A stretch of 64,000 bases of DNA from Pseudomonadota bacterium (GTDB taxonomy: Bacteria; Pseudomonadota; Gammaproteobacteria; Xanthomonadales; Ahniellaceae): positions 1 through 64,000 of the forward strand of contig JALHNO010000014.1 of the NCBI GenBank assembly GCA_022843465.1. Direction: 5' to 3'. The stretch's first letter is position 1; each line of letters begins with the position of its first letter. A program made the position numbers and the translations under genes. The notes beneath the pieces were generated by a model. The model did no database searches. It saw only the letters and a list, made by a program, of their open reading frames with translations, and was not told where the DNA came from. Shown piece by piece: positions 12,590-33,848 of this stretch.

Positions 12590-12605
12590 CCGCGCGGGAA
12601 GCCTG

Positions 12606-13621: not shown

Positions 13622-13683
13622 ATGCCCGGGTTCGATGCCACGGCATCGTCAGTCCCCACCCCTGCAACCTCAAGGAGCTTCCC

Positions 13684-16374: not shown

Positions 16375-16404
16375 TTGCACACCCCTGCTGAAGGGTTGAC
16401 TCCG

Positions 16405-16590
16405 ATGAATTCAGGAATCGCTGTCGTGTTCACGCTGTTCTACTTCGTGATTGTCCTTGGAATCAGCGTGTATGTGCTGGTACTGCTGGCCCGGTTCGTA
16501 CGAGCCCACCAGCGCGGTGCGGATGCGCTGGAGACGATCGCGCGCAGGCTTCCGATCGCGCCGACCGTAAGGCCCGATCCCCGGCAATAA
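16405..16590 (+). CDS. Small single-span membrane protein
   Basis: The 61-residue product has one strong transmembrane helix (VVFTLFYFVIVLGISVYVLV) followed by a basic cytoplasmic-type tail. Function unknown. The ATG at 16405 has an AAGGG element at 16391-16395; an in-frame TTG at 16375 is less likely. It follows the MFS gene by 30 bp and may be co-transcribed. Confidence 0.6.
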   Translation: MNSGIAVVFTLFYFVIVLGISVYVLVLLARFVRAHQRGADALETIARRLPIAPTVRPDPRQ

Positions 16591-16745
16591 CGCGGACGAA
16601 TCCTTCGTCGCGGCCGGGTCTCGCTGGCCGCGCAGTTCCCGGAAGACTGCTTCGGATTTGCCGGCGCCGCGCGCGACGGGTTCACGCCCATCGCGCCGGC
16701 TTCCGGGCTAGACTTGGGACTGCCCATCCCCCGATCGGAAGTCGC

Positions 16746-18119: not shown

Positions 18120-19051
18120 TGCGGCTCACCACAGCGGATGGCATCGAGCTTGAGTACACCCTGGAGGGCAGGGCGGACGCACCCGTGGTGCTTCTGATCA
18201 TGGGGCTCGGCATGCAGATGATCGCCTGGCCCGAGGAATTCTGTAGCCGCCTCCTCGCTGCCGGTTACCGGGTGCTGCGATTCGACAATCGCGATATCGG
18301 GTTGTCCAGCAAGATCGACCAGGCACGTCCGCCCAATCTGGCGCTGGCGGCGATGCGCTACTGGCTGCGCCTGCCGGTGCATGCACCATATTGCCTCGAT
18401 GACATGGCGGCCGACAGCATCGGCCTGCTCGATGCACTGCAGATACCTGCCGCGCATGTGGTCGGCGTTTCCATGGGCGGCATGATTGCGCAGCAGATCG
18501 CAGCATTGCACCCGGCGCGTTGTCTGAGTCTGGGGTCGATCATGTCCACGACTGGTGCCCCATCCCTGCCCAGGCCCAGTCTTTCGGTCTTGCGACTGCT
18601 GCTCGCGAGACCACCGAACGGCGTCGAATTCGAGCGCGTCGTCGCGCATTTCGTGCGCCTGTACCGCCGGATCGGCAGCCCGGCGTATCCCGTCGAGGAG
18701 TCGGTGCTGCGCGAACGCGTGGTACTCAGTTTGCGGCGCAACTATCACCCCGCAGGAACCGCCCGCCAGTTGCTGGCGATCGTGGCATCAGGTGATCGCA
18801 GCCGTGCGCTCGGCAGGATCACCGCGCCCACCCTGGTCATCCACGGCGATGCCGACCCCTTGCTGCCGATCGCCCACTGCCGGGCCACGGTGCGCGCAAT
18901 TCCCGGGGCAGCCCTGCACGTCATCGCCGGCATGGGTCATGATCTTCCGGTGCCGCTGCTCGCAGAGATCTGCGCGCGGCTGGATGAGCACTGGCGTGCG
19001 GCCACGCGCGTTCAGGGCAGCTCGGGTGCGGCTTGTGCGGACACGACTTGA
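18119..19051 (+). CDS. Alpha/beta hydrolase
   Basis: The 310-residue enzyme has the alpha/beta hydrolase plan: LLIMGLGMQMIAWP (oxyanion hole), the nucleophile elbow GVSMGGM, TLVIHGDADPLLP for the acid and GMGHDLP for the catalytic His. Relatives act on esters or lactones. The start codon shares a base with the stop of the M28 peptidase gene, so they are translationally coupled. A TonB- or chitin-related role is not suggested by sequence; specificity is unknown. Confidence 0.85.
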   Translation: MRLTTADGIELEYTLEGRADAPVVLLIMGLGMQMIAWPEEFCSRLLAAGYRVLRFDNRDIGLSSKIDQARPPNLALAAMRYWLRLPVHAPYCLDDMAADSIGLLDALQIPAAHVVGVSMGGMIAQQIAALHPARCLSLGSIMSTTGAPSLPRPSLSVLRLLLARPPNGVEFERVVAHFVRLYRRIGSPAYPVEESVLRERVVLSLRRNYHPAGTARQLLAIVASGDRSRALGRITAPTLVIHGDADPLLPIAHCRATVRAIPGAALHVIAGMGHDLPVPLLAEICARLDEHWRAATRVQGSSGAACADTT

Positions 19052-19096
19052 TCCGCACAATGGTGGTCTGCGCCCGTTGGCTCCAGTGAAGATTCC

Positions 19097-19771
19097 ATGA
19101 TTGAGATCGTCAGTGCCACCCGGCTCGCCGAGGCCGAGTTCTGGGCGCGCTCCGCTCTCGGCATGTCCCTGCGCAGACTCGCCGGCGACAAACGCCTGCG
19201 TCACCACATCAGCTTCGAGAATCGCCGCGGCCTGCCCGAGGTCTATAACGCACGTATCGCCGAGGAAGGGGGTGGCGATATCGCCGTCTTCATCCATGAC
19301 GATGTCTGGATCGATGACTATTTCTTTGCCGATCACCTGATCGACGCGCTGGAACGCTTTGACGTGGTGGGTGTCGGCGGCTGTCGCAACCGGGTTCCTG
19401 GTCAGCCGTCCTGGTGCTTCGCCGATGAACGCATGGTGCAGTCCGACCCGACCACCCTGAGCGGTCGTGTGGCCCATGGCAAGCATCCGTTCGGTCGGAT
19501 CGGCTACTTCGGCGATGTGCCGGCGGAATGCGAACTGCTGGACGGCGTGCTGCTGGCAGCACGCAAGTCCAGGTTGCGCGCGCAGTCGGTGGCTTTCGAT
19601 CCGGTTTTCGATTTCCACTTCTACGATCTCGATTTCTGCCGGAGCGCGCGTCAGCGCCAGCTTCGACTGGGTACCTGGCGGCTGTGCATCACCCATCAGA
19701 GCGAGGGTGCATTCGGCTCGGATGCCTGGACCGCGCGCTATTACCAGTACATCGCGAAGTGGGGCGATTAG
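19097..19771 (+). CDS. Glycosyltransferase-like protein (StrF/GT-A type)
   Basis: The 224-residue protein has the DIAVFIHDDVWIDDYFFADH motif of the GT2-like StrF group: HDDVW takes the place of the DXD metal site. The C-terminal half has CELLDGVLLAARKS and FDFHFYDLDFC. It has no signal peptide or membrane segment. Probably a cytoplasmic sugar transferase; the donor and acceptor are unknown. Downstream lies a repeat (19824-20011). Confidence 0.75.
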   Translation: MIEIVSATRLAEAEFWARSALGMSLRRLAGDKRLRHHISFENRRGLPEVYNARIAEEGGGDIAVFIHDDVWIDDYFFADHLIDALERFDVVGVGGCRNRVPGQPSWCFADERMVQSDPTTLSGRVAHGKHPFGRIGYFGDVPAECELLDGVLLAARKSRLRAQSVAFDPVFDFHFYDLDFCRSARQRQLRLGTWRLCITHQSEGAFGSDAWTARYYQYIAKWGD

Positions 19772-19823
19772 TCCGACTGCGCGGCGGGCCACGCAGCGCT
19801 CCGCGGCGGCAGATTCCGCTCGT

Positions 19824-20011
19824 GTAGCTCAGGGCAAGCCCCATAGGCCTTAACCTGTTTGGCTGGTTCCTGAATTTTGGCACGGCACACCATGACTCGC
19901 GCCCCTTCGGGGCGAGCGCGAACCAATGCCGGATGATGGACAGTTGCGCGTTGGACAGGGCAATCATTCGCCAGGAAAAACAGGCTGACGCCTATGGGGC
20001 TTGCCCCGCTG
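19824..20011. repeat. MITE-like element with inverted copies of the IS200-flank repeat
   Basis: 19824-19914 is an inverted copy of 508-595, from GTAGCTCAGGGCAAGCCCC to the GCCCCTTCGGGGC hairpin. 19971-20011 repeats the outer ~35 bp in the opposite direction, so the element has imperfect inverted ends (GGGCAAGCCCCATAGGC and GCCTATGGGGCTTGCCC). No transposase is inside. It sits between the glycosyltransferase and the TPR-sulfotransferase, whose longer open frame begins inside it; 19772-20140 holds no other gene. Confidence 0.7.
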
Positions 20012-20140
20012 CCCTTGACCAGCTCCGCTGTTGCACAGGGCTTGGCACACACCAGGCGGGGCAGCGAAGTCTTTGCGATGACGCCTCCGGGGATTGCCGC
20101 ATTGTGCGGAGGATTACCGGCGCTGAAGTATACTTTTCGG

Positions 20141-21745
20141 ATGCACACTCCTCAGTATCCATCACCTTCAGTCTCTGCTGACGGCTCCGGTTCGGCGCGC
20201 CTGCGTCGGCTTCTGCAACGCGCGGAAAGCTATTCCGCCATGGGTGAGCGCGCGGCGGCGATCAACAGTCTGCAGGAGGCGCTGCAGTTGCAGCCTGATC
20301 ATGTTCCCAGCCTGCTGCAATTGGCCGAGCTGCAGCTCGCTGAAGGTCGTCACACGGCAGCCCGCGAGGCGACCTTGGCCGCGACCCGCGGCCACATCGA
20401 CAGTCCGCGCACTGCGCTGCAGTTGCTGCGTGTGCTCAATACGCTGAGTGAATCCGCCATGATGGTGCAGATGGCCCAGCAATTGCCGCCGCCGATGTGG
20501 GACTCGGCCAAGTCGCTGGCCGAAGTTGCGCAGGAACTCACCCTGATCGGCGCCCACGAGTTGGCCCGTCAGTTTGCCCAGGCCGCGCTGGCGCGCGATC
20601 CGAATCACCCGCCCAGTCTCTACATGTGCGCAACGCTCGATGTGTTCTACGGCGATCTAGCCGCGGCTGCCGCGCATGCGCAGCGTTGCCTCGATATCGT
20701 GCCGGAGGATCCAAGTTCACACTGGCTGCTTTCGCGCACCCGGCTGCCGGGTGCCGAGCAGCGCGTCGCGCGCATCGAAGCGGCGCTGACGCGGGTACCG
20801 ACGGGTGAGCCCGAGGCCTGGCTCGCCTACGCCCTGCACAATGAGCTGCATGATCTGCGCGAATACCCGCGTGCCTGGGCCGCGCTTGAGCGTGCCTGTC
20901 GCGCCAAGCGCAGTACCTTGAGTTACAGCACTGCCGAAGCTACGGCTCTGGTCGACGCCCTCTGCCAGTGGAAGATTGCGTTGACGGCAACCGGTGGCCA
21001 TGTCGATCCGCAGCTGACGCCCATCTTCGTGATCGGGCTGCATCGCTCCGGCACCACCCTGGCCGAGCGTATCCTCAGCGGCCATTCTGCGGTGACCGCA
21101 GGGGGCGAAACCTATGATGTGCGCGCGCAATTGCGGCGCGCGAGCGGGCTGCACTTTCCCGGTGAGATCGATCCGCGGGTTGTTCAGATGCGCGATCGGC
21201 TGGATTACCGTGCCATTGGTGCGGGCTATCTGCAGGGTATGGCTTGGCGGGCGCGCGGTGCCGCCATGGTGACCGACAAGCTGCCTTCGAATTACTTCAA
21301 TGTGGGCTTCATAGCGCAGGCCTTGCCGGCGGCGCGCTTCATCTGCCTGGATCGCGACCCGATCGATGTCGGCCTATCGTGCCTCCGGACCCTGTTCAGT
21401 GCCGCCTGCCCGTATTCCTATGATCAGCAGGAGTATGTTGCGCACTACCGCAATTACCAGCGCCTGATGGCGCATTGGCGCACGCAGTTCGGCGATCGCA
21501 TTCTCGATGTCGCCTACGACGATCTGGTCAACGCACCCGAGCAGACGGCGACCCGCATGGCGCAGTTCTGCGGACTCGATTATGAGCCAGGCATGGTCCG
21601 GATCGAGTCGCGCAGCGATGCCGTGGCGACCGCCAGCAGTGTGATGATGCGCGACGGCATCCGCCGCGATCGTGGTCGGGTCTGGGCTGCATACGAAGTC
21701 CAGTTGCAGCCGATGATTGCCGGCCTGTCGGCGGTGACAGGTTGA
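20141..21745 (+). CDS. TPR-sulfotransferase (tyrosylprotein sulfotransferase-like)
   Basis: The 534-residue protein has N-terminal TPR repeats (about residues 15-270) and a C-terminal sulfotransferase domain. PIFVIGLHRSGTTLAERIL is the 5'-phosphate-binding loop for PAPS, and LDRDPIDVGLSCLRTLF the 3'-phosphate motif. It transfers sulfuryl groups to an unknown acceptor, plausibly peptide or glycan. The frame is open from 19994, but that piece is repeat-derived; the ATG at 20141 starts a normal N-terminus. A second TPR-sulfotransferase lies at 27475-29478. Confidence 0.85.
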   Translation: MHTPQYPSPSVSADGSGSARLRRLLQRAESYSAMGERAAAINSLQEALQLQPDHVPSLLQLAELQLAEGRHTAAREATLAATRGHIDSPRTALQLLRVLNTLSESAMMVQMAQQLPPPMWDSAKSLAEVAQELTLIGAHELARQFAQAALARDPNHPPSLYMCATLDVFYGDLAAAAAHAQRCLDIVPEDPSSHWLLSRTRLPGAEQRVARIEAALTRVPTGEPEAWLAYALHNELHDLREYPRAWAALERACRAKRSTLSYSTAEATALVDALCQWKIALTATGGHVDPQLTPIFVIGLHRSGTTLAERILSGHSAVTAGGETYDVRAQLRRASGLHFPGEIDPRVVQMRDRLDYRAIGAGYLQGMAWRARGAAMVTDKLPSNYFNVGFIAQALPAARFICLDRDPIDVGLSCLRTLFSAACPYSYDQQEYVAHYRNYQRLMAHWRTQFGDRILDVAYDDLVNAPEQTATRMAQFCGLDYEPGMVRIESRSDAVATASSVMMRDGIRRDRGRVWAAYEVQLQPMIAGLSAVTG

Positions 21746-21794
21746 CGGCGGCCGGCAGGTGCTCGGGATCGCCGCTTCATTCTGGCGCGTGCAG

Positions 21795-22469
21795 CTATCC
21801 GATCGGTACATCCGCCGGTTGCGCACCATCGAGCCGGAAGCGCACGTTGAAGGCCACCGTGATGCGCACATCGTCTCCCTCGTAGGGCAAGACCTCATGC
21901 AGCAGCCAGGAGGGAAACAGCACCAGATCCCCGGCCTTGAGCCGCAGCATCCGGTTGCTCATGTGGAAGGGCATCTTCATGCTGGAATTCGCCATGTCGA
22001 TGAACATCGTGTTCATCGAATGCGGATTGATCATGGTCAACTTGCCACTGTCGCTGGCCGGATCATCGCCGGTATGACTGACGCAGTAGACACCCGACCA
22101 GGAATGCATGGGATGGTTATGCGGTCCGAAATAGCCACCCTTGCGGGTGACATGAAACCAGGCTTCCGAAGCCGCGTGCAGACGGCGCAGCATCGGCACG
22201 TCATAGCCGGAGAGTTCGCCGATGGCCTTGTACAGGCTGGCGTAACAGAAATCGCGCAGGCGTTGCACGCAGGGCTGGGGCCAGTCGAACAGGCGGAAAT
22301 TGCTTTCAAACAGCGCCGCGTTGCGATGCGTGTAAGGATCCGGGTTGCGGTAGCGGTCGTCACTGGCGCGGGCGAGAAAAAGTTCGCGCAATTCGGAGTT
22401 GAGCGCCTCACTGTCGGCGAGGCTGGCGAATACCATCGGAACCGAGAAGGCCGGCACTATCTGAAACAT
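21795..22469 (-). CDS. Putative 2OG-Fe(II) oxygenase (TIGR02466-like)
   Basis: The 224-residue protein has the double-stranded beta-helix features of 2-oxoglutarate/Fe(II) oxygenases: GPHNHPMHSWSGVYCV supplies His ligands, GDLVLFPSWLLHEVLPY the distal His, and DDVRITVAFNVRF a basic 2OG-binding strand. Proteins of this type are usually annotated putative 2OG-Fe(II) oxygenase and often lie near sulfotransferase/TonB-receptor genes. The ATG at 22467-22469 has AGGAAA upstream on its strand; the open frame reaches 22724 over the start of the divergent gene. It converges on the TPR-sulfotransferase gene. Confidence 0.7.
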   Translation of the reverse strand: MFQIVPAFSVPMVFASLADSEALNSELRELFLARASDDRYRNPDPYTHRNAALFESNFRLFDWPQPCVQRLRDFCYASLYKAIGELSGYDVPMLRRLHAASEAWFHVTRKGGYFGPHNHPMHSWSGVYCVSHTGDDPASDSGKLTMINPHSMNTMFIDMANSSMKMPFHMSNRMLRLKAGDLVLFPSWLLHEVLPYEGDDVRITVAFNVRFRLDGAQPADVPIG

Positions 22470-22686
22470 CAGGGAAGTTTCCTGCAGGAAAAGGCAAGTT
22501 TTCGCACAGTTTGCCGCAATCCACAACAGCAGCGGGGCAAACGACTCGGGCGGATGTCGGCGTACCCAGGGAGCGGCTGCGCCGACGCGAGCGCCGGCAT
22601 TTTCAGAGGTCCGCACCCAGGCTTGGGCGGGCCAGGCTCGAACGCAACCCACAAGCAACCGTGTGCAGGCCAGTGGGTGTTCCGCC

Positions 22687-24168
22687 ATGTCGGCTGACCC
22701 AGGCACGGGGTACCGCGTCAGCATGCGTGAGGCCGGGCGCGCATCGGGCTGGCCGGATCTGTACGCGCAACCCGAGCGGCTGCTGTATCTGCTCGCCGCC
22801 TGGCATCTGCTGTTCTGGGTGCTGGCACCGGCGCTGACGTATCGGATGCTGCCGCTGGATACGCTCGAACTGCTGGGCTGGGGCCAGCACTGGCAGCTGG
22901 GCTATTACAAGCATCCACCGCTCGGTGCCTGGCTGGGTGAACTGACCCTGCAATTGTCCGCCGGCCACCTCGCTGGCCTGTATGTACTGGCGCAGCTGTG
23001 CGTGCTGGTGACGCTGTTCTATGTCTGGAAAACCGCGCGTCTGTTTCTCGATCCGCATGCTGCCGTGATCGCCACTGCCCTGCTCGAGGGCGCGTACTGG
23101 TACACCTGGCTGACGCCGAACTTCAACATGAACACTTTGCAGTTGCCTGTGTGGGCGGGGCTCAGCTATCACTTCGTGCGTGCATTGCGTGGCGATCTCG
23201 GTCACTGGTGGGCCTGGGGTGTCTTCGTCGCGCTCTGCCTGTACACCAAGTACTCCGGGCTGCTGCTGATTGCCAGCTGTGCGCTGATCCTGGTGGCAAG
23301 TCCAGTGGGCCGGGCCAGTCTGCGCACCCGCGGGCCCTATCTCGCCGGCTTGCTGGCTCTGCTGTTGCTGGCGCCGCATCTGGCCTGGCTGAGCGATCAC
23401 TGGCGATTACCCTGGTCGTATCTGCGCGGGTTTGATCGTGGCGCCGCCGCCATCGCCTATCCGCATGTGCTGGAGCCACTGCGCTTCGCCATCGGTGCCC
23501 TGCTTGGCCTGTTGTTCAGTGCCCTGCTGTTGCTGCTGTTGATTGACCGTCGCGCGCAACTCGTGCGCCCACGCCGCGAGGCCTGGTTGATTCTGGCCCT
23601 CTGCCTGGGACCGCTGCTGATTTCGACCTGCTATGGCATTGTCAGCGGCAGCCGCTTGAAATCCACCTGGGCGTTCGGCTTTTTCAATCTCGCCGGCGTC
23701 GCCGCCTTGCTGCTGGTTCCTACGCGTATCGACACGCTGCGATTCAGGCGCTTCAGCTGGGGACTGGCGGCGGTGGCGCTGTTCGTCGCCGGTATTCATC
23801 TGGTCTACAAGACTCAGAGCGAGCGTTCCAAGACCCGGTTCGACGGCGCGGCACTGGCGGCCGCGATCGCCGACGACTGGCAGCAGACCATGCCCGGCCC
23901 GCTGCGCATCGTGATCGGCGATCACATCCTCAGCGCCATTGTCTCGGCCTACGCGCCAAGCCGTCCGGCGATGCTGATCCAGGGGGACTTTGCGATTTCG
24001 TTATGGCTGAGGCCCGAAGACCTCAGGCGCGACGGCGCGGTGATTGTCTGTGCCAGCGACTCGGCCTGCTTTCCTGAGCTGAGCGCTGGCGCCAGTGTGC
24101 AGCGCGAGCTGGAAATCGGTGGGCGTCGCTTCAGATATTTTTTCGTCGCGCCCAGCCCAGACCACTGA
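22687..24168 (+). CDS. GT39 family membrane glycosyltransferase
   Basis: The 493-residue polytopic protein has about ten hydrophobic segments and the early motif DTLELLGWGQHW, then GYYKHPPLGAWL, as in ArnT/GT39 enzymes that use polyprenyl-phosphate sugars. It is a second GT39 gene in the window, unlinked to the first. Several starts are possible (GTG 22663, ATG 22687, ATG 22723); 22687 is preferred. It is divergent from the oxygenase gene and convergent with the frameshifted TonB-receptor gene. Confidence 0.78.
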   Translation: MSADPGTGYRVSMREAGRASGWPDLYAQPERLLYLLAAWHLLFWVLAPALTYRMLPLDTLELLGWGQHWQLGYYKHPPLGAWLGELTLQLSAGHLAGLYVLAQLCVLVTLFYVWKTARLFLDPHAAVIATALLEGAYWYTWLTPNFNMNTLQLPVWAGLSYHFVRALRGDLGHWWAWGVFVALCLYTKYSGLLLIASCALILVASPVGRASLRTRGPYLAGLLALLLLAPHLAWLSDHWRLPWSYLRGFDRGAAAIAYPHVLEPLRFAIGALLGLLFSALLLLLLIDRRAQLVRPRREAWLILALCLGPLLISTCYGIVSGSRLKSTWAFGFFNLAGVAALLLVPTRIDTLRFRRFSWGLAAVALFVAGIHLVYKTQSERSKTRFDGAALAAAIADDWQQTMPGPLRIVIGDHILSAIVSAYAPSRPAMLIQGDFAISLWLRPEDLRRDGAVIVCASDSACFPELSAGASVQRELEIGGRRFRYFFVAPSPDH

Positions 24169-24263
24169 TCGCGACAGCTGCGCCAGCGCGCAGCCCGGTT
24201 CAACTGAAGCCCGGTCAATGCGCGAGGCGCCGACTGCGCGCCGCGCCCCGCTCCGCCGCTCGA

Positions 24264-26968
24264 TCAGAACCGCTGCGTGAAACGAATGTAGGGCACCCGT
24301 CCGTAGCCATCGTACAGCGCGTAGTCGAACGGCAAGCCACCGGCTGCGGATTGTGGATCGACGGGCGGGCCCTTGTCGGCGACATTGGTCACGCCCAGCG
24401 CAAGCTTGCCGTTCCACGGCGTACTCCAGGCCGCCTGCAGATCGTGCGTGGTCCAGGAGGGCAGGCGCCGCGGATTGCCATTGTCCTCGCCTCCATCCTC
24501 TATCAGCGCGCCACTTGCCGAAAGCGTGCCGTCGATGTGGTTGACGATCCAGTCAACGCTGAAGTCGCCGAGGTGCCATTGCGTCGCCAGGTAGGCGCGA
24601 TACTCCGGATAGCCGGGTCGGTCGACGATGTCGTCAAAGCCCAGGTGACTGAAGGTTCCGACGCGGCTGAGCTGGAGGCGATTGCTGAGCGCTCCCCAGT
24701 TGCCCAGTTCAAATTCGGTGCGCAGGTTCAGATCGATTCCGTCGCTGTCCTGGTCTCCAAAGTTGACCAGGCCGCGGTGGATGAACAGGATCTCTCCGGT
24801 GCTGGCACTGCGGGCGACGCCCAGGCCCAGATTCGGATCGCCGGGCACGGCATTGACGGGAAACGCCTGCACGCCAGGCGGGCAGCCGAGTTCGTTCGCC
24901 GCGCAGCTCACAAGCTGGGTCAGCGACAAGGAAGTGATCAGATCATGGATCGAGATATCGTAGTAGTCGATTCCCAGTGACAGCCAGGAGCTTGCCTGCC
25001 AGTCAAGACCCAGGCCCCAATGCCGGGACTGCTCCGCCTGCAGTTGCGGATTGGCAATGGTATAGACATCGACAAAGGACGCCTCGCAGATCGGCAGGCC
25101 AGCGATCAGGCAATACGTGGTATCGAAGACAAAGTCGCTGGAGCGCACCGGGCTCAGGTCAAGCGATCCCATAGCCGGCGCCTGGAAGCTCTCGCCGATG
25201 TGCGCGCGCACAGTCAGCGCAGGCAGTGCCTGGAAACGCACAGAGACCAGCGGCGAGAACTCGCTGCCGTAATCGCTGTAATCGTCGTAGCGAATTGCAA
25301 CTGCGACATCCAGCGCCTCGCTGATCGGCAGCAGTGCCTCGACGTGGAGCGCGCGTACATCACGCTCGCCCCGCGAACTGGTGCCGGCCGAACCGACAAC
25401 CTGTCCGGAAGACTGCAGGGTGTCGAAAATATCCGCGTACGACTCGCTGCGGTACTCGGCGCCGAAGGCGAATTGGGCAGCGCCGCCGCCCATATCAAAC
25501 AGATCGGTCGTCGCATTGGCGTAGATTTCCTGCAGCTGGCTGTCGGCGTCGCGATTGACCGTGGCGGTCATCGCGTCGAGGACCGAACGCGGCGTGCTGT
25601 ACGGATCGTAGAGGTCATAGCTGCCATCCGTGATGAGCTGCTGGGCCAGTCCGGTCACGATCGCGTTGCGGCCGAGGCTGTAGAACTGCTGTTCGTTGTG
25701 GCGCACGCCCGCATCGACGCTGAAATTGCCGATCTGTCCTTCAATGCCGATGTTCAGGCTGTAGTTGTTCTGTTCCGTCGAATCGGTGCGCGGTCCGACC
25801 GCGGCGAAACGATGACGCAGAAAATAGGGCAGGTCGGCGCGGTATCCGGCGTTGGGAAAACGCACCGCGGGATGATTGGGCGAGCCGACTGGAATGATCG
25901 GCGCGCCGCCCGGCCAGGGAAAACTGAGCGCCGGCGGCATCACCCCGAAACTTGTCGTGCGGCTGACGTCGGCGTCGAGATGGGTCGACCAGTCGTCATT
26001 GATCTGGAAATTTCCGCGCGCAAACAGGGCGCGTCCATGCAGCTCGGCCTCGTCGGCAGCGAGCGTAGTGAAGTCATAGAAGCAGCGCTGGTTTGGGCCC
26101 GCACCGGTGCTGAAGAACCCGTTGCGGTTGCAATCGAAGCCCGGCAGGATCGAACCGTAGGTCGGATTCGACAGCAGGCCACCGGCAACGAAGCCAGTGC
26201 CGGTGCCAGGGTTCGGGAATGCGCTCAGCAGATTGTTCGAAAACGTCGACGCGCCGCCGGATGAGTAATCACGCTCGCGCTGATAGACGATGCCACGTGT
26301 CGTATACGAAGCACCGGCGACCAGGCTGCCGCGCTCACCGCTGCTGCCAAAGATCACCGAGCCTTCCTCGGTCTCGCCGCCATCGCGACGCGGGCTGCCG
26401 GCGCCGATGGAGAGTTGCGCACCTTCGAACTGCTTGCGGGTGATGATATTGATCACGCCGCCCACGGCATCGGCGCCATATAGTGCCGATGCGCCGTGCG
26501 GCAGTACCTCGATGCGCTCGATTGCCGCGAACGGGATCGCGTTGAGGTCCTGACCCTGCACGGGTCCGACGATCGGGGATACCGCGAGGCGGCGGCCATC
26601 GACGAGGACAAGGGTGCGATCCTGACCAGGCCGCGCAGGTTCGCTGCGGAGAGCGGCTGCAAGGTGCTGGCTGATTGTGGGCGGATGGCGCCAAAGCTAT
26701 TCAGGCTGGTGCGTCGCAGGAAATCGCCGAGCGTGGTGGCTCCGGAAGCGTCCAACTCGTCCCGATCGAAAACGATAACGGTGGCAACCGGCTGGGTTGC
26801 AGGATCGGCGATTCTTGTCCCGGTGCGCCCGCTGACTGCGGCCTTGGGCTTGGCGACATCATCTGCATCGGATGGCGCCGCCATTGCGGCAACACCGATG
26901 CCAGCCAGCGTGCTGCCAAGCAGGCCCATCGCGATGACCTTGCTGAGTCCCTTGCGTGTTGTTTTCAT
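24264..26968 (-). pseudogene. TonB-dependent receptor with a single-base frameshift
   Basis: From the ATG at 26966-26968 the protein has a signal-like start and a plug region ending in SAANLRGL. The frame then goes wrong near 26621-26630. In the -1 frame the sequence continues as LVLVDGRRLAVSP, QGQDLNAIPFAAIERIEV and GVINIITRK through the beta-barrel to the Phe-terminated YGRVPYIRFTQRF at 24264. Total span is 2705 bp, one short of a multiple of three, as a one-base deletion (a missing C in cctgaccagg) would give. The intact paralogue at 29695-32379 reads LRGLGGSRTLILIDGRR at this point. Either a recent inactivating mutation or a sequencing error. Confidence 0.85.
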
Positions 26969-27097
26969 TCTTGATGCCCACCTTGTTGTTGTTGCTTGGA
27001 CGTAGTGTCGGAACCCCCATGAACTTGTCGAAACGTGCCGCAACTGAAGTACATGCACCATCGTCGTACCTCACTCCGCGAGTTCAATCGGTATCTT

Positions 27098-27129
27098 CCT
27101 TGCTGCCTTGCTGCCTTGCTGCCTTGATG
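27098..27129 (+). repeat. 8-bp short tandem repeat (CCTTGCTG, about four copies)
   Basis: Three exact CCTTGCTG units and one with a single change (CCTTGATG) lie 130-160 bp upstream of the frameshifted TonB-receptor start. The 27062-27474 interval holds no other gene; it includes a GTGCGCGC/GCGCGCAC hairpin at 27441-27465 just after the sulfotransferase stop. Confidence 0.7.
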
Positions 27130-27440
27130 TCGCCCTTCCAGTCCGCGGCGGGCGGGTACAGCAGGTGCGACCAGCTGCTTACTCCCGAACTTGCGCCCCA
27201 TGCGCTCAGCAGGCACCTGCAGATGCAGTCCGCCTGCGCACTTGATAAAAGCGATGGAACCCAGGTGCGACTTCTCTATCATGCGATAGCCGGCGAACCT
27301 TGTTGTGCGCCGTTCCCCGTTTACGCAGAATTCATTTCGCCGCGCCAATGCTGCAAGCGTCGAGCGATGAGGGATTCGGAGCAGAGCGCTACTGCGTATC
27401 CGCAAGGCGGAGCCGCGCATGCCTGTGCATGATCGAATCA

Positions 27441-27465
27441 GTGCGCGCGCTATTTCTGCGCGCAC
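27441..27465 (-). terminator. Hairpin after the TPR-sulfotransferase gene
   Basis: A perfect 8-bp GC stem with a 9-base loop begins 10 bp after the sulfotransferase stop. No T-run follows on that strand, so it would be a weak or Rho-dependent terminator at best. Confidence 0.3.
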
Positions 27466-27474
27466 ACTGGCACG

Positions 27475-29478
27475 CTATTCGCTGTATCCCAGCCACTCGA
27501 TATGAGGACGCAACAGGGGCAGCACCGGCTCGAGCCATGGCAGGTAGTTGCGCCAGCGGCCGGCCGCACGCCGGTAGATCGGTTCGGCCACCTGCTGATA
27601 GCTGTTGGTCTGGATACGGCTGCGGCCCTTGAGTCGCTGCGCCGAATCCAGCATCTCGGCGCGCACATCGAGGTCGAGCGCGGCGCAGACGGCGGTGAGC
27701 TCGGCTTCCGGATCGGCGACCAGGGATTCATAGCGTACCCAGTGCGCATCAATGGAAAGTTGTTCGAGCATCTGCCGCCAAAGCCGCATGATGCGGTCGT
27801 ACATGCGGGCCGAGTCGGCCAGAGTGTCGAAGTGCACGAAGGCTTCGTTCGGGGCGTACTGCTGCATGAAGTTGCTGAGTACCACATCGCAGGGATGGCG
27901 CACCGCAAAGATGATCGGGGCGGCAGGGAACAGGCGCCGGATCAGCGGCACGCGCAGCATGCGCAGCGGCAGTTTGTCGAGTACCAGACCTGGGAAACCC
28001 TCGGCGAGATAGGGTGCGGTGGCGGCGCGGTAATGGTCCTGCGCACGCGCGAGGCTCTCGGGGTTCAGCATCGACATGAACTGCGGATAGGCGCCGAGGG
28101 CGTCAACAGCGACCTCGATGGTGGCGCGTTCTTCGATCGAGCTGACCTGGGGATGCGCGTCCAGCATGGTGTCGAGCAGGGTGGTACCCGAGCGCGGAAA
28201 GCCGACCAGAAACGCTGGCCGGAAGCCCAGCGCTGCCGGCGGATCGCTGATCTGTGCCTGCGCGCCCGCGGCCCCTTGCGCAAGCCACTGGGCGATGGCA
28301 TCGCAGTGGCGCGGGAACGCAGCACGATCGATCTGGCGGCGCCTTGGGCTCTGTGCCGCCAACTGATTGCCGCGCTCGAACGCCGTCATCGCCGCCGAGA
28401 AGTTCCCTGCGCGATCCTGCAACTGGCCACACTCGAACCAGTACTGCTGGGCCAGTCGACTGGGCAGTGCTTCGACGGCAATCTGGGCGAGTCGCTCATC
28501 GGCTTCGGCCAGGCGCCCCTGACGACGCGCCAGTCGCGCGGCTTCGAGGTTGAGACCAGGATGTCGCGGTGATCGAGTCAGACCACGCTCGATGTGTACG
28601 GCTGCGGTTTCCAGATCATTGGTCTGTTCGAGCAGGCCGGCGAGTTCGGTCAGCGCATCGGCATCATCGGGATTGCCGGCCACCGCGGCTTCCAGGTGTT
28701 TGCGCGCCGGCGCCGTTGCCATCTGTTCGTTGAGCAGACAGCCGAGATAGAAATGCGCGAGCGGATGACCAGGCGCGGCTTGGAGCGCGCGTTCGTAGGC
28801 CTGTTGCGAGTCCTGCATCCTGCCGAGAATGTGCAGGCAGAGCCCCTTGTTGATCCAGGCATCGACATGTTCGGGATCGAGTTGCAGCAGTTGTTCGAAC
28901 GGGGCGAGCGCTGCATCGGCCTGCTCGAGTGCGCTCAGCGTGATCCCAAGATTGAGCAGGGCAACACGCAGGCCGGGCATCAGGCGCAGGGCCGCGCGGT
29001 AGGCAATCACCGCTTCATCAAGGCGACCGCTGGCGCGTTCGATATGGGCAAGGCTGTACCAGGCCTCGGCATAGTCGGGCTGCAGTCGCAGAGCGTGCTG
29101 AAGCGCGCGCCGTGCCTCATCGCCCCTGCCGAGATTCTGCAGGGCGCGGCCGGCATGATGGTGGGCGGTTGCGAGTTTCGGATGCGTATGCACAACGGCT
29201 TGCAGGATCGTCAGCGCCGCGTCGGCCTGCTGGCGCAACTGCAGATCGATGGCCCGGCCTACTTCGGCCTCAACGCTGGACCCGTGTGCGAGGGCTTGCA
29301 GGGCCTGACCGGCGATATCGAGACGGCGCTCGGTGATCGCCCACTCACGCAGACGCAGGGCGCTTGCGGCATCGGGCAGCGCGCGCAGCAGGATGCCGAC
29401 CGCGCCCTGGTCGTCGCCACGGCGGAAGCAGGCATCGGCGGCATGCAGTGGGTTCTGGTCTGGAGGTGCGGAAATCAT
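27475..29478 (-). CDS. TPR-sulfotransferase, large form
   Basis: The 667-residue protein has a long array of TPR units (roughly residues 10-390, such as AWYSLAHIERASGRLDEAV and AWINKGLCLHILGRMQDSQQ) and a C-terminal sulfotransferase domain from about residue 420. PAFLVGFPRSGTTLLDTML is the PAPS 5'-phosphate loop and FAVRHPCDVVLSNFMQQY the 3'-phosphate motif. TPRs probably recruit a protein or peptide acceptor. The gene lies between two paralogous TonB-receptor genes on the same strand; the ATG at 29476-29478 gives a sensible start. It differs in length and sequence from the other TPR-sulfotransferase. Confidence 0.87.
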   Translation of the reverse strand: MISAPPDQNPLHAADACFRRGDDQGAVGILLRALPDAASALRLREWAITERRLDIAGQALQALAHGSSVEAEVGRAIDLQLRQQADAALTILQAVVHTHPKLATAHHHAGRALQNLGRGDEARRALQHALRLQPDYAEAWYSLAHIERASGRLDEAVIAYRAALRLMPGLRVALLNLGITLSALEQADAALAPFEQLLQLDPEHVDAWINKGLCLHILGRMQDSQQAYERALQAAPGHPLAHFYLGCLLNEQMATAPARKHLEAAVAGNPDDADALTELAGLLEQTNDLETAAVHIERGLTRSPRHPGLNLEAARLARRQGRLAEADERLAQIAVEALPSRLAQQYWFECGQLQDRAGNFSAAMTAFERGNQLAAQSPRRRQIDRAAFPRHCDAIAQWLAQGAAGAQAQISDPPAALGFRPAFLVGFPRSGTTLLDTMLDAHPQVSSIEERATIEVAVDALGAYPQFMSMLNPESLARAQDHYRAATAPYLAEGFPGLVLDKLPLRMLRVPLIRRLFPAAPIIFAVRHPCDVVLSNFMQQYAPNEAFVHFDTLADSARMYDRIMRLWRQMLEQLSIDAHWVRYESLVADPEAELTAVCAALDLDVRAEMLDSAQRLKGRSRIQTNSYQQVAEPIYRRAAGRWRNYLPWLEPVLPLLRPHIEWLGYSE

Positions 29479-29644
29479 TGAACGCCAGCGAAGAGCAAGA
29501 GGCCGCAGTTTATCGGGGCGCGGACTTCGTCGCGCGGGATGCTGTGGATCGGTTGCTGCTGGCGCACGGGCAATATCAACAGGCGTCGATCCGCCTGCTC
29601 GCGGCATCAAGCGTTGCCAACGAACGGAATATTTTTCCCAAGGC

Positions 29645-29673
29645 AAAAAAGAAGGGCCCCGAAGGGCCCTTCT
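29645..29673 (-). terminator. Rho-independent terminator of the TonB-receptor gene
   Basis: On the minus strand a perfect AGAAGGGCCC/GGGCCCTTCT stem with a TTCG tetraloop is followed by five Ts. It begins 22 bp past the receptor stop, separating that gene from the downstream sulfotransferase. Confidence 0.9.
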
Positions 29674-29694
29674 GAAATTACCGCAGTGCCTGGA

Positions 29695-32379
29695 TTAGAA
29701 GCTCTGGGTGTAACGCGCGTACGGCACGCGGCCGTAGCCGTCGTACAGGTTGTAGTCAAACGGACGACCGGTCGGGGCAAACGGATCGAGAACCGGGCCC
29801 TTGTCGGTCAGGTTGGTCACGCCGAGCGAGAGCTTGCCGTCCCACGGGGTATTCCACGTGGCCTGCAGGTCGTGGGTGGTCCACGACGGCAGACGGTGGG
29901 AGTAGCCGTAGTCGTTGTTGCCAGCAGCTGCCTGAACACCGGCCGTCGACAGCGTGCCGTCGATGTGGTTGATGTTCCAGGCGAAGCTGAAGTCACCGAT
30001 GGTCCAGACCGTGCCGAGGTTGGCACGGAGTTCCGGAACCGACGGATCGTCGACCAGGTTGCGGGCGCCGTCGAAGCTGTAGTTGCCAACGCGGCTGATC
30101 TGCAACTGGTTGCTGATCGCACCCCAGCTACCGACGTCGAAGTTGGTACGCAGATTGACGTCGATACCGTCGGTCTCGAGGGTACCGCGGTTGGCGAAGC
30201 CACGCTGGACGTACAGGATTTCACCCTGCGGACCACGTGCGATACCGAGGCCGAGCGACGGCTGCGGCGGCGACACGTTGCCCGGCAGAACGCTGACGCC
30301 CGGGGGGCACGGCTGTGCACCGGACAAGCAGCTGATCATCAGGCCGGTCGAGATGGCGGCAACACGATCATCGATTTCGATATCGTAGTAGTCGACCGTC
30401 AGGCTCAGCCAGTCGGTGGCGTCCCATGCCAGGCCCGCGCTCCACTGGTCGGACTGCTCCGAGGCGAGGTTCGGGTTGGCGATCGAGTAGGCCGTGATCT
30501 GCGTGCTGCAGGTCGGGGCCAGGCCGAAGGCCAGGCAGGTTGCCGGATCGGTAACCGTATCGGCCGAGAACGCCGGCTGGGCGGTGACGATGTCCAGGGT
30601 CGGAGCGCGGAAGCCCTGACCGTAGGAAGCGCGCAGCGTCAGCTGGTCGATCGGCTGGAAGCGGACCGAGACCTTGGGCGAGAAGTCATTGCCGTAGTCG
30701 GAGTAGTCATCGAAGCGGCCAGCGACGGACACTTCAAGGTTGTCCATGACGGGCATCAGGAATTCGAAGAAGGCTGCCGTAACGTCACGGCCACCACCTG
30801 CGGAGTTGCCTGCCGAACCGACGATCTGACCCGAGGACTGCAGGGTGTCGTAGATGTCGGAGTAGGTCTCTTCGCGGTACTCGGCACCGAATGCGATGGC
30901 TGCGGAACCGCCGCCCATCTCGAACAGGTCGACACTGGCGTTGGCGTACAGCTCCTGGATCTGCGTAGCCGAGTCACGGTTGATCGTGGCGACCAGGCCG
31001 TCGAGAACGCTGCGCGGAACCGAGAACGGATCGTAGATGTTATAGCGGCCGTTGGCGATCGCTGCCTGGGCCAGACCACCGACCACATAGTTGCGGCCGA
31101 GATCGTAGTACTGCTGCTCGCTGTGACGCAGACCGAAGTCGACGAAGAAATCGCCGATGGTGCCTTCGAAGCCGACGTTCAGGTTGTAGCTGTTCTGATC
31201 CGTTTCGGTGTCACGCGGGCCGAGTGCGGCAAAGCGGTGACGCAGGAAGTACGGAACGTTCGGGTTGTAGCCAGCGCTCGGGAAGCGAACCGCCGGATGG
31301 TTGGGCGAGCCGACCGGAATGAACGGCAGGCCACCCGGCCACGGCGAGGACGGCACCGGCGCGTAACGGCCGAAGCTCTTGGAGCGGGCAACGTTACCGG
31401 CGAAGTAGGTCGACCAGTCGTCATTGATCTGGTAGCTACCACGGGTGAACAGCGACTGGCCATGAATCTCGGCTTCGTCAGCTGCTGCCGACGAGAAGTC
31501 GTAGAAGCAGCGGGTGGCGGTCGAGAAGAAGTTGTTGGCGTCGCAGTTGAAGCCCGGCAGCTTGGAGCCGAAGGTCGGGTTGTTGTGGAAACCGCCCGGC
31601 ACGAAGCCGTACAGGGTGCCCGGAGCCGGCGTGGCATTGAACAGGTTGTTCGAGAACGTCGAAGCACCGCCCGTCGAATAGTCACGCTCGCGCTGGAAGA
31701 TGATGCCGCGGCTGTTGTACGAAGCGCCAGCCAGCAGGCTGCCGCGCTCGCCGGACGCGCCGAAGATCACCGAACCTTCTTCGGTCTCGCCGCCCGCTGC
31801 ACGCGGGTTGCCAGCACCGATGGTCATTTCCGCGCCTTCGAAATCCTTGCGGGTAATGATGTTGATGACGCCGCCGATGGCGTCGGAACCGTAAATGGCC
31901 GATGCGCCGTCGGAGAGGATTTCGATGCGCTCAACAGCTGCGAGCGGAATCGAGTTCAGATCCTGGCCCGAACCGGTATTCGGCGAAACCGGTGCACGGC
32001 GGCCGTCGATCAGGATCAGGGTACGGCTGCCGCCCAGACCACGCAGGCTGACTTCGGCAAACGACTGCGCCGAAGAACCCGACTGCGGACGGAACGAGCC
32101 GAACGAGTTGAAGGTGGTGTTGCGGAGGAAATCGGCAACGTTGGTGTCACCCGAAGCGTCGATGTCCTGACGATCGATCACGGTGATCGGCAGCGAACCT
32201 TCGACATCGGCGCGCTTGATGCGTGAGCCGGTGACTTCGATGCGCTCCATCGTGGTGTCGGAGCCCTCTTCCTCATCCTGCGCGAATGCAGGGGCGGAAA
32301 CGAGTCCCAGCAGGCCCACGGTACCGGCCGCGAGGCCGAGACGAACGGCGTTACTGAGCAAATTACGTTTGATCTTCAT
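29695..32379 (-). CDS. TonB-dependent receptor
   Basis: The 894-residue outer-membrane receptor has a signal peptide (cleavage after SAPAFA), then an acidic stretch and MERIEVTGSRIKRAD, the plug entry motif. The plug domain (DFLRNTTFNSFGSFRPQSG, LRGLGGSRTLILIDGRRAPV, GVINIITRKDFEGAEM) is followed by a 22-strand-type barrel ending YGRVPYARYTQSF with the terminal Phe. It belongs to the group without an N-terminal carboxypeptidase-like domain. Paralogous to the frameshifted gene at 24264-26968. Such receptors import siderophores, glycans or peptides; the ligand is unknown. A strong terminator follows. Confidence 0.92.
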   Translation of the reverse strand: MKIKRNLLSNAVRLGLAAGTVGLLGLVSAPAFAQDEEEGSDTTMERIEVTGSRIKRADVEGSLPITVIDRQDIDASGDTNVADFLRNTTFNSFGSFRPQSGSSAQSFAEVSLRGLGGSRTLILIDGRRAPVSPNTGSGQDLNSIPLAAVERIEILSDGASAIYGSDAIGGVINIITRKDFEGAEMTIGAGNPRAAGGETEEGSVIFGASGERGSLLAGASYNSRGIIFQRERDYSTGGASTFSNNLFNATPAPGTLYGFVPGGFHNNPTFGSKLPGFNCDANNFFSTATRCFYDFSSAAADEAEIHGQSLFTRGSYQINDDWSTYFAGNVARSKSFGRYAPVPSSPWPGGLPFIPVGSPNHPAVRFPSAGYNPNVPYFLRHRFAALGPRDTETDQNSYNLNVGFEGTIGDFFVDFGLRHSEQQYYDLGRNYVVGGLAQAAIANGRYNIYDPFSVPRSVLDGLVATINRDSATQIQELYANASVDLFEMGGGSAAIAFGAEYREETYSDIYDTLQSSGQIVGSAGNSAGGGRDVTAAFFEFLMPVMDNLEVSVAGRFDDYSDYGNDFSPKVSVRFQPIDQLTLRASYGQGFRAPTLDIVTAQPAFSADTVTDPATCLAFGLAPTCSTQITAYSIANPNLASEQSDQWSAGLAWDATDWLSLTVDYYDIEIDDRVAAISTGLMISCLSGAQPCPPGVSVLPGNVSPPQPSLGLGIARGPQGEILYVQRGFANRGTLETDGIDVNLRTNFDVGSWGAISNQLQISRVGNYSFDGARNLVDDPSVPELRANLGTVWTIGDFSFAWNINHIDGTLSTAGVQAAAGNNDYGYSHRLPSWTTHDLQATWNTPWDGKLSLGVTNLTDKGPVLDPFAPTGRPFDYNLYDGYGRVPYARYTQSF

Positions 32380-32668
32380 TCACTTATCTCCAACATTCAG
32401 TGTGTCTAAACACAGTTCGGGACATCCGTCTTCCATGTCCTAGGAAGGGCCTACGGCGCAGGCGCACGCCTACGCGGTGAGCGTAAAACCAGAATAGCAA
32501 CAACTCTTTAACAAGGGAATAGCGCAAAATTAACGATGTTGCGCTGCCGCAACAAGCTGCCCGCGTTCACAAAGGGCATTGATTCCAAGGTAGTGAGCTG
32601 CATCGAGGCCGCGGTCTTGCGGTAGCGCTGCGCAAGCCTGCCGGCGGGGCACACTATATGATGTGCGG

Positions 32669-33706
32669 ATGAATTCCGATCCACAGACAAAGCGACCGCC
32701 ATCCGGTGCAACCGGCATGGAAGCGCGCCGCAGCAGCTGGTCGCAGTACTGGGCCTCTGGCCTGCTGCATTCCTGCCCGGGCTCGTTCGCCGGCAATTAC
32801 GACGGCGCCATTGCCCAATTCTGGGCACAATCGTTTGCGCGGCTTGGGCCTGGTCAACGCGTGCTGGATATCGCCACCGGCAATGGCGCGTTGCCGCGCC
32901 TGCTGTTCGGGGTGGACGGCGGCAACGACTTCGACGGCGAGATCGACGCCATTGATCTGGCCCGAATGGCCCCGGACTGGCTGGGCCGCCTGCGCCCGGC
33001 ACAACGCAGTCGCCTGCATTTTCATCCGGGCACCGATGCCGAGGCACTCCCGTTCGCCGATGGTCAATTCAATCTGGTGATCAGCCAGTACGGCATCGAG
33101 TACGCCGATCTGGATCGTGCCCTGGTCGAGGCGGCGCGTGTACTGGGCGTGCAGGGCAGCCTGTGTCTGCTCATGCATCATCGCCAGTCGCTGCCGGTGC
33201 AGAAGGCCGAAGCCGAGCTGGAAATTCTTGCGCAATTGCGCGGCGATGCCGATCTGCTCGCCTGCGCGCACCGCATGCTGCCCTGGATCGCATTGGCAGC
33301 GAGCGCCGAGGGCCGCAGCAAGTTGGCCGGCAATGCCCAGGCACAGGCCGACCGTACACGCTTCAATGTCTGCCAGCAGGCGATCGATGGCTTGATCGCA
33401 GGTGCGACCGCCGAGAGCGAGGCCGTCGTGGAACTCCGTGATGACGTGCAGCAGGTGCTGGCGCTGGCGCAGACCCGCGGTCGTGCGTCAGCCGAAGCCG
33501 CACTGCAGGCGCTTGCCCAGCGGCAGGCGGACCAGCAACTGCGGGCACGCGAGCTGATCGCGCACGCGCTCGATCAGGAGCGCATGCAGGCGGTGCTGCA
33601 CTTGCTCGCCAGCCTGGGCTTCGCTTCGGTGCGCGCGCAGCCGCTGCACTATCAGCAGCATCTGATGGGGTGGACGCTGATCGCCGAGCGCCCGCCGGCG
33701 CGATGA
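32669..33706 (+). CDS. Class I SAM-dependent methyltransferase
   Basis: The 345-residue protein has motif I VLDIATGNGALPRLLFG, an acidic DAIDLAR, and LVISQYGIEYADLDRAL, typical of class I methyltransferases. The C-terminal ~140 residues are helical and have no clear match. It starts at ATG 32669, divergent from the TonB receptor with about 290 bp between. A TGTGTctaaACACA repeat lies at 32401-32414 in the receptor leader. The methyl acceptor is unknown. Confidence 0.78.
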   Translation: MNSDPQTKRPPSGATGMEARRSSWSQYWASGLLHSCPGSFAGNYDGAIAQFWAQSFARLGPGQRVLDIATGNGALPRLLFGVDGGNDFDGEIDAIDLARMAPDWLGRLRPAQRSRLHFHPGTDAEALPFADGQFNLVISQYGIEYADLDRALVEAARVLGVQGSLCLLMHHRQSLPVQKAEAELEILAQLRGDADLLACAHRMLPWIALAASAEGRSKLAGNAQAQADRTRFNVCQQAIDGLIAGATAESEAVVELRDDVQQVLALAQTRGRASAEAALQALAQRQADQQLRARELIAHALDQERMQAVLHLLASLGFASVRAQPLHYQQHLMGWTLIAERPPAR

Positions 33707-33848
33707 TCTCGCCTGCTGCCCTGCAGGGGACGGACACTGTCTCTCGCAAGCTGGCGGCAGCGCGGACTCTGCCGGCAATGAGTCTCTGTCATCGGCATGA
33801 TCGTCACTGCCACTCCTGAATGGCACCAATCCTCAGCAGCCGCTGGAC

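Follow-up and report, generated by a model that had tools for sequence, protein, structure and literature searches.

TonB receptors of many proteobacteria adjoin TPST-like sulfotransferases, which suggests an unreported decorating system

The window analysed here is a 64,000-nt stretch of DNA, and the block under study covers nt 19994-32379 together with its flank to nt 33706 (Table 1). Two TPR-sulfotransferases, one 2OG-Fe(II) oxygenase and two TonB receptors had been claimed in a sequence-only reading of the block, and all five genes were confirmed by their Pfam domains. The coordinates also bear out the claim that the larger sulfotransferase (ST2) lies directly between receptors A and B, all three genes being on the minus strand. 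That gene list was incomplete, however, as it overlooked the PMT_2 gene placed between the oxygenase and receptor B, and the adjoining methyltransferase, to which the cassette extends beyond the block as earlier drawn. The true starts of three genes are likely to be internal, judging by sequence: near nt 20141 in ST1, near nt 22469 in the oxygenase (leaving nt 21795-22469) and near nt 29478 in ST2. A strong terminator-like hairpin separates receptor A from ST2, so the receptors and ST2 need not form one operon; six terminator-like sites were found in the scan, fewer than in shuffled sequences (mean 8.9). PMT_2 was not matched by tblastn (1e-6) in any of the other loci fetched for comparison and probably lies outside the cassette. 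It was rejected as a cassette part along with a weak glycosyltransferase-like ORF (nt 19097-19771), also unmatched in the fetched loci, and an M28 peptidase (nt 16746-18119) with one weak match elsewhere (L058).

Table 1. Genes and features of the block and its flank (window coordinates).
Feature	Position (nt)	Strand	Evidence and remarks
ST1, TPR-sulfotransferase	19994..21745	+	PF13469 (Sulfotransfer_3) E 1.1e-43, TPR
2OG-Fe(II) oxygenase-like protein	21795..22724	-	PF13759 E 6.2e-20; HxH...H...R signature
PMT_2 glycosyltransferase-like membrane protein	22663..24168	+	PF13231 1.9e-29
TonB receptor B	24264..26980 (main ORF 24264-26561)	-	PF00593 1.4e-38; frameshift in plug
ST2, larger TPR-sulfotransferase	27475..29646	-	PF13469 3e-31, many TPR
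Terminator-like hairpin 3' of receptor A	29650..29673	-	10-pair stem then T run (match to the consensus only)
TonB receptor A, 894 aa, signal peptide + plug	29695..32379	-	PF00593 8.3e-48, PF07715 1.8e-23
Class I SAM methyltransferase, divergent from receptor A	32663..33706	+	Methyltransf_11 5.7e-8

Scarce nutrients cross the outer membrane mainly through TonB receptors, which phages often exploit as a way in. The two receptors of the block had been described as paralogous and do share 61% identity, but receptor B is frameshifted in the assembly: its ORF begins within the plug domain, what precedes it (signal peptide and initial part of the plug) is found upstream in another frame, and the genome match of receptor B starts at residue 116 of receptor A. 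Plug (PF07715) and barrel (PF00593) domains score above cut-off in both proteins, the plug of B being partial because of the frameshift. Gene decay and assembly error are both possible causes of the break. Relatives of receptor A occur in other families of the order, at identities of up to 73%.

When the sulfotransferase profile was compared with PDB structures, the protein-tyrosine sulfotransferases (TPST) were the best match (1.3e-28 vs 5e-18 for CurM), and heparan enzymes (2e-7) and SULTs (8e-7 or weaker) matched less well. The domain of ST2 alone, searched as a single sequence, also returned TPST1 as best (1.5e-8). AlphaFold models (pLDDT 92.6 for ST1, 83.8 for ST2) and Pfam TPR matches show consecutive TPR repeats, seen as helix pairs in both models, before the transferase domain; the first Foldseek match was the OGT TPR domain for ST2 and designed TPR proteins for ST1. 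The search with whole ST2 was dominated by TPR, and the sulfotransferase fold was therefore assessed on ST1. A comparison with VIA-align, made against the structures in Foldseek's match rows only, placed TPST first, above CurM and the heparan enzymes (Z 20.3, 16.7 and 13.1), with 233 residues of TPST1 aligned at an rmsd of 2.6; the last of these scores shows that heparan 3-O-sulfotransferases also fit the fold. By likeness of sequence and predicted fold, the enzymes thus appear closest to the protein-tyrosine-sulfotransferase type, which means closest of few, since few PF13469 enzymes have solved structures. Residues R15, E36 and K88 are invariant in 34 sulfotransferase sequences and S212 is present in at least 90%. 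The TPST signature residues (5'-PSB arginine, glutamate and 3'-phosphate-site) are present in these sequences; by our reading of the profile alignment, E36 corresponds to the second Glu in the EE pair of TPST, reportedly the catalytic base according to the TPST2 structure paper. An ortholog of ST1 (69% identity over 178 aa) stands beside the same receptor subfamily in another genome (locus L145, genome G110), and the own genome carries an APS kinase gene, which would supply the PAPS donor.

The oxygenase scores 71.9 bits against PF13759 (cut-off 27). The nearest known enzymes are aspartyl/asparaginyl beta-hydroxylase and the PF13759/TIGR02466 2OG oxygenases, and in the loci compared here 2OG oxygenases adjoin TPR or are fused with it; the window protein differs in falling just under the TIGR02466 cut-off (60 bits vs 62.5) and in having HxH instead of HxD, the usual motif of such oxygenases. 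Among solved structures it has two clear relatives, both of them uncharacterized proteins. The methyltransferase family has the motif W-S-x-Y-W-x-S-G ... NYDG, and the window protein, itself included in the family profile, matches it at 2.1e-113, a score clearly separated from those of generic methyltransferases. The solved matches of that profile include many small-molecule methyltransferases.

Gene neighbourhoods were then compared across genomes. The order-level set consisted of 80 hand-picked loci, the first usable of the best 150 PF13469 matches, excluding the own family, the edges of contigs and already included neighbours; genes were called with a script based on GC by codon position, and the absence of a called sulfotransferase in two loci (L069, L133) reduced the set to 78. 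A receptor was found within 700 bp of the sulfotransferase in 51 of these, using profiles built from receptors of the same and earlier loci, which may miss other receptors. Receptor counts per successive kb from the sulfotransferase were 64, 4, 2, 10, 0, 3 and 1, and many pairs are on the same strand with gaps of 3-200 bp and no gene called between them. In the named loci, a receptor lies no further than 700 bp away in 38/80 and is lacking from that range in 42/80. Co-occurrence in other genomes, the lack of which was to count against the sequence-only reading, is therefore strongly conserved. Fourteen of the 78 order-level sulfotransferases have no receptor anywhere in the locus. In the loci that are sphingomonad by title (L256, L260, L261, L269, L295 and L297), a receptor lies at 700 bp or less in two and at 1 kb or less in one. 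TPST-type partner enzymes beside receptors were found in at least two classes, the Gamma- and Alphaproteobacteria. The own genome (5.18 Mb) has 22 PF00593 places and eight PF13469 genes, three of which directly adjoin a receptor (ST2, one on C17 and one of two on C18), while none of the other five lies next to a receptor; ST1 and receptor B stand three genes apart. The modifying enzymes very probably have a dedicated link to the receptor.

The same gene set was recovered from three other starting genes, namely the receptor, the methyltransferase and the oxygenase. A receptor, sulfotransferase or oxygenase lies within 1.5 kb of the methyltransferase in 28/30 family loci, and 14/16 of those outside profile building have a partner gene (L317 being counted among the loci not used for methyltransferase profile A3). 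Around the oxygenase, cassette genes recur in 21/30 loci and in 11/20 of those outside profile building, one of the 11 (L349) showing no more of a receptor than 60 residues at the edge of the locus. An oxygenase profile iterated through TPR proteins was contaminated by TPR; its place was taken by a query with the single domain and, later, by a profile of the domain. Twenty receptor-A-type loci were hand-picked from the top receptor-A matches, and at least one partner enzyme is present in 15 (methyltransferase 14, oxygenase 9, sulfotransferase 7), as scored with methyltransferase and oxygenase profiles built from proteins of overlapping loci and with L190 taken as sulfotransferase-carrying although over 3 kb separate its sulfotransferase from the receptor. 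The other five carry none of the enzymes, so their presence close by is not a general requirement of the receptor. The oxygenase, named as a member of the block in the sequence-only reading, is supported as a receptor partner in that its linkage recurs in other families, in both receptor- and oxygenase-centred loci; a 70% identical ortholog lies between sulfotransferase and receptor in locus L174. An unrelated locus of the own genome (C18) combines a receptor only 27% identical with a TPR-sulfotransferase, a 2OG oxygenase, a methyltransferase and two TPR-Asp/Asn hydroxylases. In Pseudoxanthomonas kalamensis, a cultivable environmental species, locus L234 contains a sulfotransferase, a receptor, a methyltransferase and a further sulfotransferase, and an oxygenase was not observed there.

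Sulfotransferase and receptor trees are seen to co-vary (Mantel rho 0.79 over 66 pairs, reached by 0/2000 permutations), a mirror-tree correlation that may partly reflect shared species history. The nearest locus from another genome in the sulfotransferase tree was also first by receptor distance in 37/66 cases and within the first two in 48/66. Receptors linked to a sulfotransferase are richer in tyrosine overall (5.1 vs 4.0%, unmatched control) and, among profile-chosen ORFs, in acidic-flanked tyrosines (5.44 per 1000 in 66 linked vs 3.09 in 28 unlinked receptors); the latter difference is not relied on because the control is unmatched and the difference is absent within one receptor subfamily. 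The 28 control receptors are high-scoring, shorter and unmatched by subfamily, L201 having been dropped as linked and L207 as lacking a profile hit. Within the receptor-A subfamily (10 sequences with and 14 without sulfotransferase), no tyrosine column was present with the enzyme and absent without it, acidic-flanked tyrosines showed no difference (6.66 per 1000 with vs 7.09 without, p 0.93), and the share of all tyrosines differed weakly (4.24% with vs 3.68% without, p 0.065). No receptor column set carriers apart from non-carriers more clearly than the strongest of 60 label permutations, the best column and permutation maximum being 0.70/0.76 for the sulfotransferase, 0.76/0.82 for the methyltransferase and 0.76/0.76 for the oxygenase. 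No receptor tyrosine tied to the sulfotransferase emerged from the column, acidic-flank or permutation tests. The search for a small precursor gave no convincing recurring ORF among 4613 ORFs (25-110 codons, outside called genes): clusters present in at least four loci look like antisense fragments of sulfotransferase or receptor, ORFs of low complexity or an upstream stretch conserved in a few close relatives. Beyond apparent shared synteny, no other gene family recurs beside the sulfotransferase-receptor pairs of the order-level loci.

The sulfotransferase domain resembles metazoan TPST1 and TPST2 (PDB 3AP1, 5WRJ, 8W5Z) in sequence and fold, and the PAPS motif arginine, the aligned glutamate and the DK/NK lysine are conserved. 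The enzymes of the block differ in being bacterial and fused to a TPR superhelix, in sharing only 17-21% identity over the aligned part, and in having no signal peptide or membrane anchor visible in their sequences. They share with OGT and SPINDLY a TPR superhelix ahead of the transferase domain, but the catalytic domain and donor are different. According to excerpts of two sources (PMC9372746, PMC6637879), RaxST of the Xanthomonas raxX-raxSTAB system performs TPST-type tyrosine sulfation of RaxX in the cytoplasm, before export. The enzymes studied here are likewise bacterial sulfotransferases of TPST type and would also act in the cytoplasm; in contrast to RaxST, they are TPR-fused and their partner is a TonB receptor. 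No RaxX-, RaxA- or RaxB-like gene was found among the scanned window ORFs by Pfam domain and small-ORF recurrence, and the Pfam scan of the ten ORFs at nt 14989-32379 revealed no ABC exporter or adaptor. Among the matches listed for titles and abstract openings of the open-licence PMC literature, there was no description of TPR-sulfotransferase/TonB receptor units.

Our tentative reading, to which we give somewhat less than an even chance in its full mechanism, is a modification cassette dedicated to the receptor, with the receptor precursor as substrate. The TPR superhelix, as in OGT, would bind an extended polypeptide before export, and the C-terminal domain would move sulfate from PAPS onto a tyrosine of the bound chain; the oxygenase and methyltransferase would act on the same chain, which would then be exported. 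The cassette would be cytoplasmic, and the receptor precursor would be its simplest substrate, since it is the only polypeptide seen recurring beside these enzymes. The earlier suggestion of a sulfated peptide or glycan is narrowed by the TPST likeness in sequence and fold, which favours a polypeptide. That TonB receptors are sulfated, and partly hydroxylated or methylated, in the cytoplasm by TPR-guided enzymes before export, as a widespread Gram-negative system, is a bolder and rather doubtful proposition.

The enzymes might instead sulfate, methylate and hydroxylate a peptide or small-molecule ligand made elsewhere in the genome, with the neighbouring receptor taking this ligand up or recognising the version of it made by a neighbour. 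This is possible, if on the unlikely side: uptake is what such receptors do, some loci have peptidases nearby (M28 in the window, an X-Pro dipeptidyl-peptidase in C18), the comparisons gave no sulfotransferase-specific receptor tyrosine, and the methyltransferase has small-molecule enzymes among its solved matches. Against such a ligand speak the lack of a recurring small ORF or other gene family beyond apparent shared synteny, the single weak match elsewhere of the window's M28 peptidase, and a sulfotransferase that resembles protein-tyrosine more than small-molecule sulfotransferases. A surface glycan, LPS or several exported proteins as substrate, with receptor adjacency arising from outer-membrane co-regulation, is a distinctly unlikely explanation. 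The fit of heparan 3-O-sulfotransferases to the fold, the PMT_2 and weak glycosyltransferase-like genes of the window and the 14 sulfotransferases without a receptor are consistent with it, yet neither of those two genes was matched in the fetched loci, and the many close two-gene units and the subfamily-to-subfamily co-divergence with the receptor argue against it. Both gene families are numerous (12-71 receptor matches in each of eight genomes of the order, up to 16 PF13469 matches), but adjacency by chance alone is extremely improbable, as about 1.4 pairs would be expected (276 receptor matches in 8 genomes, ~33.9 Mb) against the 51 observed, receptors drop from 64 to 4 between the first and second kb, and the linkage was recovered again from the three other starting genes.

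Excerpts of a 2022 review (PMC9372746) describe protein sulfation as sparse in bacteria, with one plant-pathogen peptide as the worked example, and call bacterial TPST sparse, whereas PF13469 proteins of all kinds are present in 176/200 genomes of the order studied here. The finding that receptors in many proteobacteria adjoin TPST-like enzymes, often with a methyltransferase and an oxygenase, suggests a system, so far unreported, that decorates the receptor or its cargo. The question of what bacterial TPST-like enzymes act on becomes directly testable on a two-gene unit. If the receptor-precursor reading is true, protein sulfation would be common rather than sparse in bacteria, and modification of the receptor, by three enzymes that may share this substrate, would tune ligand binding or hide the receptor from phages and bacteriocins.

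In this part of the window, the sequence-only reading had described two TPR-sulfotransferases (ST1 and ST2), one 2OG-Fe(II) oxygenase-like protein and two paralogous TonB receptors (A and B), with the larger sulfotransferase between the receptors. All five genes were found, the gene order agrees, and receptors A and B share 61% identity.

Gene content of the sulfotransferase/receptor block
Gene	Coordinates (nt)	Strand	Remarks
ST1	19994-21745	+	TPR-sulfotransferase
2OG oxygenase	21795-22724	-	PF13759
PMT_2 membrane protein	22663-24168	+	absent from the sequence-only reading
TonB receptor B	24264-about 26980	-	frameshifted
ST2	27475-29646	-	TPR-sulfotransferase
TonB receptor A	29695-32379	-	
Class I methyltransferase	32663-33706	+	absent from the sequence-only reading

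The frameshift in the assembly affects the plug of receptor B (24264-26980), with the barrel ORF open through to its end, and reflects either recent pseudogene formation or an error in the assembly. A terminator-like hairpin 3' of receptor A suggests that ST2 is probably transcribed separately. The usual iron triad of 2OG oxygenases, HxD...H, is replaced by an invariant HxH...H...R in the oxygenase family (nt 21795-22469 and the family alignment, A4). A tandem array (nt 33823-34672; 3.3 copies of a 258-bp unit, 95% matches) separates the methyltransferase from the following gene, and the window also encodes a TPR-fused protein kinase (nt 58811-61693; PF00069, 1.6e-43).

The genome carries eight PF13469 genes and 22 receptor barrels, and three of the eight (ST2, one on contig C17 and one on contig C18) have a receptor as direct neighbour; on C17 the sulfotransferase precedes the receptor on the same strand, and the C18 pair is convergent. 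Adding 20 loci of relatives within the family gave 26 ST-centred loci outside the window, with 10 receptors, all directly adjoining an ST; the receptor profile detected none in 16 of the 26, several of which are on short contigs. Across the order, PF13469 matched in 176 of 200 genomes, and an ST was called in 78 of 80 loci drawn from the best-scoring rows. A receptor was present within 700 bp of the ST in 51 of these 78, many pairs being separated by gaps of 3-200 bp, and anywhere in the locus in 64; receptors per successive kb from the ST numbered 64, 4, 2, 10, 0, 3 and 1. Since eight genomes of the order gave 276 receptor matches over about 33.9 Mb, we calculate that chance alone would place about 1.4 receptors next to 78 STs. 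The co-occurrence also held in 38 of 80 named loci taken from genome_contigs (within 700 bp; 28/56 where at least 3.5 kb was available on both sides), including loci of Xanthomonas, Pseudoxanthomonas, Lysobacter, Steroidobacter, Paraglaciecola, Rheinheimera, Sphingomonas, Novosphingobium and Phenylobacterium. The fetched stretches of Rhodopila, Ruegeria, Xanthobacteraceae, planctomycetes, Sphingobium and Dyella contained no receptor. At one locus (L117, G181:C6), six consecutive ORFs matching the sulfotransferase profile adjoin a single receptor.

The partners also diverge together. Distance matrices from the two trees, compared over 66 ST-receptor pairs, gave a rho of 0.79, uncorrected for shared species history; the largest rho in 2000 permutations was 0.22. 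In 37 of the 66 pairs, the closest locus from another genome in the ST tree also had the closest receptor, and in 48 its receptor ranked first or second.

Other families of the order contain close relatives of receptor A (at most 73% identity). Among 20 of their loci, 14 include a methyltransferase, nine an oxygenase and seven an ST; all three are absent from five, and in one (L190) the ST and methyltransferase lie more than 3 kb from the receptor. Locus L174 has all three enzymes together with the receptor, and the corresponding window genes are likely orthologous to its ST (69% identity over the 178 aa covered) and oxygenase (70%). Over 200 genomes, the methyltransferase profile set family members clearly apart from generic enzymes by score, and a receptor, ST or oxygenase lay within 1.5 kb in 28 of the 30 best methyltransferase-centred loci (14/16 outside the profile-building set), the exceptions being L326 and L333. 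Oxygenase-profile loci had cassette neighbours in 21 of 30 cases (11/20 outside the profile-building set). By coordinates, receptor, oxygenase and methyltransferase form a one-strand tandem in genomes G033, G127 and G137, with one stop codon within the oxygenase match in G033 and G137. A locus of the same genus (L047 of G001, nt 6447-16323) carries an ST, a methyltransferase, a TPR-2OG oxygenase fusion, a second ST and a receptor in 10 kb, an example of TPR fused to an oxygenase and not just to sulfotransferases. A second block of the window's own genome, distantly related to the first (L012, C18:67800-87700, nt 6311-18311), contains a receptor, a TPR-ST, a 2OG oxygenase, a methyltransferase and two TPR-Asp/Asn beta-hydroxylases flanking an X-Pro dipeptidyl-peptidase. 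The theme of receptor plus modifying enzymes therefore recurs with distantly related receptors. Outside the order, PF13759-type oxygenases were seen near TPR-STs in L275 (Pirellulales), L290 (Alphaproteobacteria) and L293; the fetched stretch of L293 includes a receptor, those of L275 and L290 none.

A profile of 34 ST domains, compared with solved structures, best matched metazoan protein-tyrosine sulfotransferases (TPST; 1.3e-28 to 3e-24), followed by polyketide-pathway (CurM, 5e-18), mycobacterial (2e-11), heparan (2e-7) and small-molecule SULT enzymes (8e-7 and weaker); the ST2 domain alone matched TPST1 at 1.5e-8. In structural alignments of the ST1 model (pLDDT 92.6), TPST1 reached Z 20.3 over 233 residues (rmsd 2.6), the polyketide-pathway enzymes 4gox and CurM 16.7 and 16.6, and a heparan enzyme 13.1. 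These comparisons draw on few solved PF13469 enzymes. The TPR part resembles O-GlcNAc transferase and designed TPR proteins. Three residues are invariant: the PAPS arginine, the DK lysine and a glutamate that lines up with the EE pair of TPST. The genome encodes an APS kinase for PAPS supply.

The simplest candidate substrate is the receptor precursor, which would be sulfated, hydroxylated and methylated in the cytoplasm before export. In the loci examined, it is the only polypeptide observed to recur beside the enzymes, and a small-ORF scan of the fetched loci returned no recurring small ORF. The main rival is that the enzymes modify the receptor's ligand. Evidence against the receptor as substrate comes from the receptor-A subfamily: no tyrosine column distinguishes ST-carrying loci from the others, acidic-flanked tyrosines do not differ between the two groups, and for ST, methyltransferase or oxygenase no column separates carriers more strongly than did the most extreme of 60 label permutations. 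One report describes raxST homologues in diverse bacteria without raxX, presumably with other substrates (PMC6637879).

The sequence-only reading knew of no described system of this make-up, and in searches of the open-licence literature no description of TPR-sulfotransferase/TonB receptor units was found among the matches listed. As far as searched, the receptor/modifying-enzyme system is undescribed. The genomic system is real and conserved; its enzyme types are already known, and their combination is new.
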